64,000 nucleotides of DNA from contig NZ_LXWK01000001.1 of NCBI RefSeq assembly GCF_001669775.1, positions 1-64,000 on the forward strand, written 5' to 3'. The translations under genes and the position numbers were made by a program. Positions 1-30,465 of this stretch are shown here, piece after piece. Positions within the stretch are counted from its first letter, which is position 1. Each line of letters begins with the position of its first letter. The notes under the pieces were generated by a model, which had not been told where the DNA came from, did not search any database, and saw only the letters and a list, made by a program, of their open reading frames with translations. This stretch comes from Rheinheimera sp. SA_1. GTDB lineage: Bacteria > Pseudomonadota > Gammaproteobacteria > Enterobacterales > Alteromonadaceae.

Positions 1-118
1 GGGATTTAAGAACGCAACCAATGTTGCGTTCTTCCGGCGGAACAATCCCGAGCTCTGCGAAGGGCATGAAGGCTCCCAATAAAGCCAGAAAGGCCCAGTC
101 TAACGACTGGGCCTTTTT
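1..118 (+). ncRNA. Structured RNA element, copy 1 of 2 (left end may be cut)
   Basis: An 11-bp perfect hairpin (8-18 with 23-33, loop CAAT) is enclosed by a possible GGGA/TCCC helix (1-4 with 46-49). A conserved 3' core follows (47-81, GAGCTCTGCGAAGGGCAT then AAGGCTCCCAATA), then an intrinsic terminator. The same architecture recurs at 169-281 with a different stem sequence but the same loop and core. That means the stem pairing is kept while its bases change, which indicates a functional RNA. I do not recognise the family. It could be a small RNA or an attenuator, and the true 5' end may lie left of the window. A reading frame ending at 79-81 also exists, so a C-terminal coding tail is a weaker alternative. 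Confidence 0.6.
89..118 (+). terminator. Intrinsic terminator of RNA copy 1
   Basis: A 10-bp GC-rich stem (91-100 with 105-114, loop TAAC) is followed by a run of T residues at 114-118. Confidence 0.85.
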
Positions 119-168
119 GCTTTATGGAATTTGGCGGTGGATTGCTTGGAGAGTAGTACAGTGAAGAC

Positions 169-281
169 GGGAATTAGAGAAGCCAACAATTTGGCTGCTC
201 TCCGGCTGAACGCCCTGAGCTCTGCGAAGGGCATCAAGGCTCCCAATAAGTCAACAAGCCCGCTCACTGAGCGGGCTTTTT
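169..281 (+). ncRNA. Structured RNA element, copy 2 of 2
   Basis: Complete second copy. GGG (169-171) can pair with CCC (213-215). An 11-bp hairpin with one mismatch (176-186 with 191-201) again has the loop CAAT. The 3' core at 213-247 is nearly identical to copy 1, and a terminator follows directly. Almost every stem base differs from copy 1 while the pairing holds. No open reading frame spans both copies in the same frame, which argues against coding. The tandem arrangement with separate terminators suggests two independently terminated small RNAs, and more copies may lie upstream. No close promoter consensus was found between the copies. The family is not recognised. Confidence 0.65.
256..281 (+). 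terminator. Intrinsic terminator of RNA copy 2
   Basis: A 10-bp stem (256-265 with 269-278, loop ACT) ends in a T5 run. Confidence 0.85.
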
Positions 282-483: not shown

Positions 484-2520
484 GTGCATTCTTTCATCCA
501 GGGTTTACTACTGACAGCTGTATCAGGTGCCAGTTTTGCGGTTCATGCCAATCAGCCGCTGCAATATGAAGATGTGTTCCAGCTAGAATTTGTCTCACAG
601 CCGCAGCTGAATAAAGCTGGCAGTGAAGTGGTGTTTGTGCGCAATCGTTTTGATCAGACTCTTGATAAAAGAGTCGGCTCATTATGGCTGAGCAATACGA
701 AAACCGGCCAATTACAGCCGTTAGTGGCAGAGCAAGCTGACATCAGCTCACCGCAATGGTCCCCAGATGGTAAGAAATTACTGTTTGTATCTGCGGCATC
801 CGGCAAACCACAAATCCATTTGCGCTGGTTGGACAGTGGTACCAGCGGTCAAATCAGCCATTTACCGCACCCACCGGCCGATATCAGCTGGTCGCCTGAT
901 GGCAAGTGGCTGGCATTTTCGATGTTTACACCGGTCAAAGCGAAAAACCCGGTGACTTTACCAGGTAAACCTGAGCAAAACGACTGGGCTAAAGCACCGG
1001 TTTATATTGATACCATGCAATATCGGGCGGATGGCCGTGGTTACTTGCCGTCTGGTTATCGCCAAATTTACCTAATGGCCGCTGATGGCGGCACGCCAAT
1101 CCAGTTAACTAGCGGCGATTTTGATCATGCCGGTGAAATTAGCTGGCAAGCCGATGGCAAAGCGTTTTACTTTTCCGCCAATCGTCAGGCTGATAAACGG
1201 GCCCAGGCACAAAACAGTGATATTTATCTGCTGACCCTAGCCGACAAAAAACTGACCCAAATCACTGATCGTTTTGGTCCGGACCAATCACCTTCATTAT
1301 CTGACGACGGCAAATGGCTAGCCTATCTTGGATACGATGATAAAAAACTCGCCCACCAAGCCAGTCAGCTGTACGTCAAAAACTTAAAATCCGGTGAAGT
1401 GCGTAGCTTGACCGCTGATCTTGACCGCAATATCGATAGTTTTGAATGGGATGCCGACGGTGATGCCCTTTACATCCAATACGATGATCAAGGTCAGGGC
1501 AAAATTGCGCTGCAGCCATTAAACGGCAAAGCCAAAGTAGTGGTGGAACAAGTTGGTGGTGGTTCATACAGCCGTCCTTACACCGGCGGCAGCTTTAGTG
1601 TGTCGGACAACGACAAAATCGCCTTTACCCAAATGTCGAGCCAGGCACCTGCAGAGTTGGGGTTATGGCAAAGCGGTAAAGTCACGGCGTTAACCGCGCT
1701 GAATGAAGATCTGCAACTGGCGCGTGATATCGGCAAAGTTGAAGAGTTTTGGGTCACGTCGTCCGTTGATCAGCGCAAATTACAAAGCTGGTTGATTTAT
1801 CCACCTCAATTTGACCCGAGTAAAAAGTATCCGCTGATTCTGGAAATCCATGGTGGCCCACATACGGCTTATGGTCCGGTATTCGCGATGGAACTGCAGT
1901 TGATGGCGGCGCATGGTTATGTGGTGCTCTATACCAACCCACGGGGCAGTACCAGTTATGGTATGGAGTTCGCGAATTTGATTCACCACAATTTCCCAAG
2001 TCAGGATTACAACGATCTGATGGATGCAGTGGACGCGACAGTGGCTAAAGGATTTATTGCACCTGATCAGCTATTTGTCACCGGTGGTAGTGGCGGCGGT
2101 TTGTTGACGAGCTGGATTGTTGGCCATACCGATCGTTTTAAAGCTGCGGTGGCGGTGAACCCGGTGATTAACTGGTTTAGCTTTGTATTAAACGCTGATA
2201 TGTATAACTATTTCAGTCAATATTGGTTCCCGGGTATGCCGTGGGAAAAGCCGGAGCATTATTTAAAACATTCGCCGATCAGTTATGTTGGCAATGTCAA
2301 AACTCCAACGATGTTGATGACTGGCGAATCTGATCATCGCACGCCGATTTCTGAGACCGAGCAATTTTATCAGGCGCTGCAGCTTCGTGGTGTCGACACG
2401 GCTATGGTCCGGATCCCAGGCGCATCGCATTCAATCCATGCAAGGCCCAGCAATATGATGGCGAAGCCTGCCTACATTGTGTATTGGTTTGACAAGTATC
2501 GATTGAAAAAGGCTGAATAA
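484..2520 (+). CDS. Secreted S9 family (prolyl oligopeptidase-type) peptidase
   Basis: A 678-residue serine peptidase of the prolyl oligopeptidase/acylaminoacyl-peptidase clan, which cleaves short peptides. A GTG start is followed by an N-terminal signal peptide ending near the AHA at residues 20-22, so the enzyme is probably periplasmic. Residues about 30-430 carry WD40-like PD40 blades (SPDGKKL, SPDGKWL, SDDGKWL) forming the beta-propeller. The C-terminal alpha/beta-hydrolase domain shows the catalytic triad: Ser536 in GGSGGG, Asp617 in GESDHRTP and His649 in GASHSIHA. Length fits the family. It is a single gene with its own terminator. Exact substrate (dipeptidyl versus acylaminoacyl) cannot be told. 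Confidence 0.93.
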   Translation: MHSFIQGLLLTAVSGASFAVHANQPLQYEDVFQLEFVSQPQLNKAGSEVVFVRNRFDQTLDKRVGSLWLSNTKTGQLQPLVAEQADISSPQWSPDGKKLLFVSAASGKPQIHLRWLDSGTSGQISHLPHPPADISWSPDGKWLAFSMFTPVKAKNPVTLPGKPEQNDWAKAPVYIDTMQYRADGRGYLPSGYRQIYLMAADGGTPIQLTSGDFDHAGEISWQADGKAFYFSANRQADKRAQAQNSDIYLLTLADKKLTQITDRFGPDQSPSLSDDGKWLAYLGYDDKKLAHQASQLYVKNLKSGEVRSLTADLDRNIDSFEWDADGDALYIQYDDQGQGKIALQPLNGKAKVVVEQVGGGSYSRPYTGGSFSVSDNDKIAFTQMSSQAPAELGLWQSGKVTALTALNEDLQLARDIGKVEEFWVTSSVDQRKLQSWLIYPPQFDPSKKYPLILEIHGGPHTAYGPVFAMELQLMAAHGYVVLYTNPRGSTSYGMEFANLIHHNFPSQDYNDLMDAVDATVAKGFIAPDQLFVTGGSGGGLLTSWIVGHTDRFKAAVAVNPVINWFSFVLNADMYNYFSQYWFPGMPWEKPEHYLKHSPISYVGNVKTPTMLMTGESDHRTPISETEQFYQALQLRGVDTAMVRIPGASHSIHARPSNMMAKPAYIVYWFDKYRLKKAE

Positions 2521-2539
2521 TCAGTTTCTTAGCACTATA

Positions 2540-2567
2540 AAAAATCCCCGAATAATCGGGGATTTTT
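2540..2567. terminator. Bidirectional intrinsic terminator
   Basis: A 12-bp stem (2540-2551 with 2556-2567, loop ATAA) is flanked by A and T runs. It sits between the convergent S9 peptidase and DUF3010 genes and can serve both. Confidence 0.9.
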
Positions 2568-2590
2568 TCACTGACCGACGACATTCGGTA

Positions 2591-3013
2591 TTAGTGAATT
2601 AAGTAGGCATAAGCGGTAGTAAATGCGGTTTCCTGGAAGGCTTTCAGGCCGGTATCTTTAAACACCACCGGAATTGGATGGGCTGCCAGCTTGTCTTTAA
2701 TCGCCGCGTTGGTGCAAATGACGGTATCGACGCTGGTGATCAGCTGCAGAGCTGCTTCGATTTTGAAACCGATGGCCGAACCAGCAAACTTGCCTTTTTG
2801 CGCCCGCTCGCGGATCACGAATTTAGAAATCTTGTAATCTTCTGCCAGTTTTGCCATCGAAAACTGAAACTTACGCATTTGTTCGGTATCTTGATCTTTT
2901 AACAGCGGGAAACGCACCTGGCGGCAGTCTGGTAAATCAAACAGGCCATCTTGCATTTCCATTAAACATAAAATGATTTCACTGCCTTTAATATCTACGC
3001 CACATACCCGCAT
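2591..3013 (-). CDS. DUF3010 family protein
   Basis: A 140-residue cytoplasmic protein matching the DUF3010 family found in Vibrio, Shewanella and relatives. The N terminus RVCGVDIKGSEIIL resembles the first strands of an RNase H-like fold, but no function is established. I chose the ATG at 3013 because GGGTGG lies six bases upstream; an in-frame GTG nine bases earlier is possible. No signal peptide or membrane segment. It converges on the S9 peptidase and shares its terminator. Confidence 0.8.
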   Translation of the reverse strand: MRVCGVDIKGSEIILCLMEMQDGLFDLPDCRQVRFPLLKDQDTEQMRKFQFSMAKLAEDYKISKFVIRERAQKGKFAGSAIGFKIEAALQLITSVDTVICTNAAIKDKLAAHPIPVVFKDTGLKAFQETAFTTAYAYLIH

Positions 3014-3094
3014 GTTTGCCACCCACTAAAAAATTTCAACGGGCGCTATTATGCCATGTAAAGCGGTAGACAGCGGTATTTATTGCGGAAAAGC

Positions 3095-29283: not shown

Positions 29284-30465
29284 TTATAGTTCGACTTCGA
29301 TGGCAGCAATCACCCGCAAAGCTTTATCTACCGCGGCCTGTACTGTGTCGGCCTGAGCCAAACCCACACCAAGCCTGCGTTCGCCCTGAATTTCGGGTTT
29401 ACCAAAAATACGAATTTCAGTATCCGGCTCGGCCAGTGCCTGCTGAATATTGTGGTACACCATTTGTTGCGATTGGCCGCTAGCCAGCAATACCGCCGAG
29501 GCCGTTGGACCTAATTGGCGAATAACCGGGATTGGCAGACCTAAAATAGCGCGGGCATGCAGCGCAAATTCTGACAGATTTTGCGACATCAGCGTCACCA
29601 TACCGGTATCGTGTGGCCGTGGTGACACTTCACTGAACCAGACGTCATCACCTTTAATAAACAGTTCTACGCCAAAAACACCAAACCCACCGAGTGCAGC
29701 GGTAATGCTGCGTGCATAGTCTTCTGCTTTGGTCAAAGCTGCCACTGACATGGCCTGCGGTTGCCACGACTCGCGGTAATCACCTTTTTCCTGCCGATGA
29801 CCAATTGGGGCGCAAAATTGGGTGCCGCTGATAGAACATACTGTCAGCAACGTGATTTCGTAATCAAAATCAATAAAACCTTCGACAATGACCCGGCCTT
29901 TGCCGGCCCGGCCGCCTTCTTGGGCATAAAGCCAGGCGGCAGCTAAGTCAGCGTCACTTTTCAGCACCGACTGGCCTTTACCTGACGACGACATGATAGG
30001 TTTGACCACGCAGGGATATCCGATGGCGGCAACTGCTGCCAAATAGCTGGCATGATCATCAGCAAACTGAAACGGCGATGTTGGCAGTTGTAGCTCTTCG
30101 GCGGCAAGGCGGCGGATGCCTTCACGGTTCATTGTTAGATTGGCGGCACGTGCACTTGGGATCACGTTGAAGCCTTCGAGCTCCAGTTCCAGCAAAGTTG
30201 CAGTCGCGATGGCTTCGAGCTCGGGTACAATCAGATCAGGTTTTTCTTTGATCACCAATTGCCGCAGGGCTGCGCCATTTAGCATTGAAATGACGTAGTG
30301 CCGATCCGCGACTTGCATCGCTGGCGCATTGACATAACGATCCACTGCGATAACTTCGCAGCCGTAACGTTTTAATTCAATACAGACTTCTTTTCCCAGC
30401 TCGCCGGCGCCTAATAACAGCACTTTCGTGCTCGTCTGGCTGGCAGGGGTGCCAATACGGGTCAT
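29284..30465 (-). CDS. purT: Formate-dependent phosphoribosylglycinamide formyltransferase
   Basis: A 393-residue ATP-grasp enzyme that formylates GAR with formate and ATP in purine synthesis, matching E. coli PurT (392 aa) end to end. [17 protein letters not shown] opens the preATP-grasp domain. [15 protein letters not shown] and [14 protein letters not shown] are ATP-grasp segments, and [14 protein letters not shown] is the metal and substrate site. GGAG precedes the ATG by six bases. It is a single gene. Confidence 0.96.

Follow-up and report, generated by a model that had tools for sequence, protein, structure and literature searches.

A candidate REP-like two-hairpin repeat in the rRNA operon trailers of Rheinheimera sp. 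SA_1

Two units at a contig edge and their rRNA operon context

We analyzed a 64,000-nucleotide stretch of the Rheinheimera sp. SA_1 genome (hereafter the window), the first base of which is the contig edge. Two related units occupy positions 1-118 and 153-281 (Table 1), and the contig edge truncates copy 1 at its 5' side. The gene behind the units (484-3022) encodes an S9 prolyl oligopeptidase family protein and is adjoined by a DUF3010 gene; at locus L025 of genome G007, an array is next to a gene whose protein ends in a similar way, as judged by eye.

An earlier note, made from the sequence alone, had described two real units with different stems, a common CAAT loop, a near-identical core and one terminator each, and this description held. 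The stem of copy 1 forms 11 pairs and that of copy 2 forms 10 of 11, with one A.G (loop at 187-190). The core, GAGCTCTGCGAAGGGCATSAAGGCTCCCAATAA, occurs at 50-82 and again at 217-249 with one difference and a spacing of 167 bases. The terminator of copy 2 (hairpin 256-278, followed by a T run) was retrieved by a consensus terminator scan, with 1 found and 0.7 expected in shuffled sequences. The terminator of copy 1 (stem 92-100/105-113 and a T run) was identified by eye, and the list from the same scan does not contain it (92-113). Helix P4 of copy 1 is a hybrid of two subtypes in which the pairs form only in part.

Table 1. Features of the two units in the window.
Feature	Position	Strand	Basis
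Copy 1: 3' part of helix P2 and helix P3 (8-18/23-33, loop CAAT 19-22); 5' part cut by contig edge	1..49	+	sequence; model match 1-78
Copy 1: helix P4 region, loop GAGCTCTGCGA (50-60), two-subtype hybrid	45..67	+	sequence, alignment, model
14 nt identical to own 5S 3' end and trailer (AGGCTCCCAATAAA)	70..83	+	word comparison
Copy 1: intrinsic-terminator-like hairpin and T run	92..118	+	by eye
12 nt identical to own 5S 3' half (GAGAGTAGTACA)	149..160	+	word comparison
Copy 2: GTGA..GAAC arm with tandem G.A, helix P2 and helix P3 (176-186/191-201, loop CAAT)	161..211	+	sequence, alignment, model
Copy 2: helix P4 GCCCT/AGGGC, loop GAGCTCTGCGA (217-227)	212..232	+	alignment, model
13 nt identical to 5S 3' end and trailer (AGGCTCCCAATAA)	237..249	+	word comparison
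Copy 2: intrinsic-terminator-like hairpin and T run	256..281	+	consensus scan

A search of the same genome placed units on five contigs (C1, C2, C4, C7 and C12). On C12 and C1 they lie directly 3' of a 5S rRNA gene (5S, 87.3 bits), and those on C2, the contig of the window, and on C4 and C7 are located at the end of the contig or close to it. Because units of the same genome stand directly behind 5S, the two units of the window are the distal end of an rrn-operon trailer array. The earlier suggestion of a longer array was correct, as C12 carries three full units behind 5S and C1 carries two.

The units follow a common order: a 5S piece ending in GAGAGTAGTACA, GTGA, P2, P3 (loop CARU), GAAC, P4 (loop GAGCTCTGCGA), AGGCTCCCAATAA (the 5S 3' end and trailer) and a terminator. 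Copy 2 is flanked by a 12-mer and a 13-mer identical to the genome's own 5S; in 2000 shuffles of a 142-nt stretch, the longest word shared with 5S reached 12, with a mean of 6.9. Unit flanks also resemble the 5S of the respective genome in G187, in G122 and at L093, as read by eye. The arrays and modules stand behind the 5S terminator. Terminator-like hairpins go with the modules (by eye) and vary in sequence between them, and a consensus scan of a 749-base stretch of C12 found 2 terminators with 1.1 expected. No promoter-like sites were found in the two stretches scanned.

Several known identities were considered and rejected. The units resemble 5S rRNA (RF00001) in sharing words of 12-14 nt with the 3' end of their own 5S, but most of 5S is missing from them and a two-hairpin element lies inside the fragment. 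A plain 5S pseudogene was rejected, as only short 5S words occur at both ends and RF00001 has no match at the units or in the window. No Rfam 15 family was matched by any unit at or above its gathering score, in agreement with the earlier note, which had not recognized the class. The best sub-threshold match, Trp_leader (RF00513), shares the order of a hairpin followed by a terminator; it scored 24.9 bits, below the gathering score of 41, its best-aligned part was the terminator, and it was rejected. A protein-coding core, which the earlier note had named as a reading that would count against it, was rejected as well, as 24 aligned units are 89-95 nt long with gap lengths that are not multiples of three.

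Covariation of the stems

With no structure supplied, RNAalifold predicted P2 and P3 from the 24 aligned units, with two-sided changes at 15 of 23 pairs. It did not predict P4 from these units and paired columns 1-4 with 72-75, in pairs that hardly vary; P4 was added to the structure by hand. With P4 included, 95.4% of 567 cells were paired and 107 cells carried double changes, compared to 1-10 when the structure was slid. P4 was the weakest helix, with 87.4% of its cells paired. A larger set came from 100 chosen loci, where 131 matches gave 124 distinct rows in an alignment that was itself fitted to the model. In this set 94% of 2749 cells were paired, 780 cells carried double changes (90-119 when slid) and the covariation score was 0.633, compared to at most 0.095. 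The covarying stems of the earlier note were therefore confirmed in 24 units and then in 124 distinct rows. The loops CARU and GAGCUCUGCGA are conserved, and a tandem G.A (GA/GA) lies at the base of P2 in 38 of 58 clusters. The P4 loop may be akin to a widespread GAGCTTGTCGA repeat.

Stem pairs change almost only between Watson-Crick types. Among 1351 cells in 58 clusters, G.U occurred 17 times (1.3%) and A.C 8 times (0.6%), a count made on 118 of the 131 rows after a row filter that favors G.U over A.C; in 119 distinct unfiltered rows there were 46 G.U and 29 A.C. This excess of G.U leans weakly to an RNA read from the plus strand. As a control we used 18 5S sequences from the same loci, and about 14% of their 630 cells were G.U in a structure predicted from their own alignment. 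A low share of G.U may also fit strong RNA stems, such as those of terminators. The covariation by itself is not proof of function as RNA.

Distribution, orientation and joins to stable-RNA genes

A first covariance model was built from the 24 units. In the window it matched copy 2 (153-245, 105.1 bits, E 4.5e-26) and copy 1 (1-78, 78.9 bits, E 5.1e-19, 5' truncated), scores that are not independent, as copy 2 is in the training set and copy 1 is contained in another training sequence; up to E 1, the whole window holds no further match. A scan of relatives with a covariance model, which the earlier note had proposed, gave matches in all 22 genus genomes (own included, E<=0.01), with 2-24 matches per genome. 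Matches were also obtained in 25 of 196 family genomes, representing 12 of 52 genera (own genus included), in 8 of 295 order genomes and in 2 of 369 class genomes, the own genome among the latter (both at E<=0.001); scans of over 40 genomes were run with stricter filters, at the cost of weak matches. Named carriers with a model match are Arsukibacterium, Alishewanella, Alkalimonas, Alteromonas, Paraglaciecola, Bowmanella, Halopseudomonas and Burkholderiaceae, and eight genomes behind the named-carrier loci gave 1-12 matches each (E<=0.01). A scan of named genomes with a core pattern yielded 71 stretches, some of which look to be coding DNA matched by chance; the model was run on 39 of these 71 loci, whose selection by the core pattern flatters their scores. 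At four Halopseudomonas loci (L142, L163, L177 and L186), the element sits within an outer stem, CCCTCTCCCC...GGGGAGAGGG.

The position relative to 5S varies. In the complete genome G002, 4 of 15 model matches (E<=0.1) lie at most 400 nt downstream of 5S on the same strand, at 4 of the 6 5S genes and with two of the four being weak (E 0.031); the rest of the 15 lie elsewhere. A model match stands behind 1 of 4 5S genes in G187 and behind 1 of 5 in G019. Among 18 chosen loci tested, 12 hold 5S, with the element sense to it in 7 (L067, L070, L079, L080, L132, L159 and L190) and antisense in 5 (L088, L089, L092, L093 and L180). The antisense element of L180 is some 530 nt from 5S. A second copy of part of the 5S 3' tail, in antisense, forms the left flank of the element at both L092 and L093.

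Several dispersed copies come after the T run of a terminator-like hairpin, as seen by eye. Among 98 non-redundant element places, 62 fall in no mechanical open frame of at least 100 codons and 89 in none of at least 200; the numbers inside such frames are 36, 18 and 9 at thresholds of 100, 150 and 200 codons. With 36 of 98 places within frames of at least 100 codons, not all are clearly intergenic. One dispersed site, L099, lies in a convergent gene pair, and of 22 genus loci only its own holds the element (model up to E 1; 20 of the 22 loci were compared by script, and the intergenic stretches were read in 18). The genome most similar at this site, G004, carries a different sequence there and is not a clean empty site.

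Other repeats accompany the element at some loci. At L102, L103, L114 and L065, from genus genomes G002, G013 and G008, it is contained in a repeat of several hundred base pairs. In the SA_1 genome, terminator-like T runs at G000:C1:1186977-1187098 and 29842-30073 are followed by a conserved 20-nt head, ATGTCCATGGAYGGACGGTA. This head is partly tandem and sometimes occurs without the two-hairpin body; its pattern gave 7 matches in the genome and 0 for a reversed control.

The element is also joined to tRNA genes. In G507, a genome of another family, the region 1300-2900 of L327 contains seven tandem units, each with a tRNA-Met 5' fragment followed by the element, and the array ends at an intact tRNA-Met. 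Six of the units match the first 30 nt of tRNA-Met with 0-2 differences and the first matches only about 15; three of the seven were reported by the model itself. Behind the intact tRNA-Met, element-like copies in inverted orientation are fused to the 3' end of the tRNA, as judged by eye. At L090, 48-nt direct repeats (96% identical) enclose a copy; the repeats include the end of a tRNA-Ser gene together with a terminator-like hairpin. Genes for tRNA were found in the flanks of 8 of 41 scanned loci, a count that is weak by itself because five of the eight resemble one tRNA cluster in five genomes.

Direct repeats with the left copy abutting the element were found at 18 of 102 matches and at 2 of 137 control positions; 102 of 132 matches were used, after near-duplicates and short flanks were dropped, and the controls came from longer loci only. 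Many of the 18 are tandem arrays, reflecting array units rather than insertion. An earlier test for local repeats gave 36 of 104 matches and 44 of 390 controls, the control windows overlapping the same mosaics.

A dispersed hairpin repeat and competing readings

We consider it somewhat better than an even bet (about 0.55) that the modules of the array carry a REP-like, non-autonomous, dispersed palindromic repeat of two hairpins that sits at the ends of stable-RNA genes together with a copied gene tail and terminator. The 5S-trailing position, the modular make-up, the covariation, the dispersal, the two orientations, the absence at one site in relatives, and the joins to 5S and tRNA, some with direct repeats, are observations; that the element is mobile we infer. 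Dispersal, both orientations, the low share of G.U, the tRNA-fragment neighbors, the absence at L099 and the lack of promoter-like sites in the scanned stretches all argue for a hairpin repeat of DNA.

Each module consists of a 5S 3'-end fragment, the two-hairpin element (GTGA-P2/P3-GAAC, then P4), another piece of the 5S tail and a terminator. Under this proposal, the element would work like REP or BIME sequences, as a DNA-level hairpin that spreads between sites, often the ends of transcription units. Insertion or hairpin-driven duplication near the end of a stable-RNA gene would duplicate the tail and terminator and leave the gene intact, and recombination between operons would then amplify and shuffle the modules. 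Pairing in the stems would persist because the hairpin acts as folded single-stranded DNA or undergoes correction by hairpin-templated repair. As a side effect, the additional terminators may be fail-safe stops for rrn transcription, and the element may have a role at the RNA level. A tentative further reading, which we regard as unlikely, is that this is an unnamed small mobile hairpin element that targets stable-RNA gene ends (5S rRNA and tRNA), joins them at a G run (GGG followed by GTGA) and duplicates either the tail and terminator of the gene or its 5' part, always leaving an intact gene. Repeated rounds would give arrays of the element and RNA-gene fragments, which in layout would be a bacterial parallel to eukaryotic SINEs with 5S or tRNA heads.

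In the earlier note, the pattern was read as directly showing that RNA structure is under selection, and an undescribed small RNA family was suggested. Here, the module would be a putative structured RNA processed from rrn read-through, with the 5S-like ends as processing signals. The strong covariation, the conserved CARU and GAGCUCUGCGA loops and the tandem G.A fit this reading, as do the modules of the own genome, which run in the transcribed direction behind 5S with a terminator each, and the slight excess of G.U over A.C. However, the element is dispersed, is antisense in 5 of the 12 chosen rrn trailers and has a G.U share roughly a tenth that of 5S, so that the claim of direct evidence is unsupported as it was stated. 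The small RNA family did not fare better in that form: the element is joined to tRNA fragments elsewhere and is absent from the relatives' loci at the one dispersed site tested, and the claim is also weakened by modules that lie behind a terminator and by the two scanned stretches without a promoter-like site. In addition, P4 of copy 1 is a half-broken hybrid. A dedicated small RNA is thus less likely than a REP-like repeat, and we consider it doubtful.

It is more improbable still that the modules persist because they serve as fail-safe terminators of rrn transcription, with the hairpin element hitch-hiking or strengthening termination. Terminator-like hairpins of differing sequence do go with the modules (by eye), and the arrays come after the 5S terminator. 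However, this leaves the covariation of P2, P3 and P4, the dispersed copies and the tRNA array unexplained, and it sits poorly with the rrn operons of G187 and G019 that have no model match and with a terminator count on C12 close to that expected.

REPs are palindromes of 20-50 nt that carry a conserved tetranucleotide, usually GTAG, on their 5' side, occur in hundreds of copies that are single or clustered and in many cases intergenic, and go with a Y1 transposase gene in the genome or next to the repeats. By published accounts (PMC8266576, PMC3733652), the element resembles REPs and BIMEs as a short palindromic repeat, both dispersed and clustered, with variable stems and sometimes within other palindromes. 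It differs from them in its core of about 72 nt with two hairpins, in its joins to 5S and tRNA gene fragments, and in having no consistent GTAG or CGTC tag. The GTAG of the rrn units belongs to the 5S-derived piece, and the dispersed copies inspected begin at GTGA-like bases. The 2-24 matches per genus genome are far below the hundreds of REPs, and 62 of the 98 places lie in no open frame of at least 100 codons.

A true REP family moved by a TnpA_REP/Y1 transposase is very unlikely, even with hairpin repeats that are clustered as well as dispersed and with the Y1 domain (PF01797) present in 17 of 22 genus genomes. Against it stand the larger element, dispersed copies that show no consistent tag and five unit-bearing genomes (own included) with no Y1 match. 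At E<=1e-5, PF01797 was not found in five genomes with 13-21 model matches each, namely SA_1, G009, G015, G016 and G021; this absence proves little, because the 17 genomes with the domain include G018, the richest in model matches (24). A Y1/RAYT partner is thus unsupported but may exist. Only 1 of 29 loci around Y1 matches holds the element, and we identified no mobilizing enzyme for it. Because two defining features of TnpA_REP-type repeats, size and tag, differ, we do not file the element as a REP.

In searches of open-access PMC papers, we found no description of this repeat. If the reading as a REP-like dispersed repeat is right, an undescribed hairpin repeat, together with copied pieces of RNA genes, shapes the flanks of rrn and tRNA genes in a range of Proteobacteria. 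Such repeats may explain broken assemblies in rrn trailers. They also call for caution, as strong covariation between paralogous copies need not signal a functional RNA, and scarce G.U together with two orientations points to DNA.
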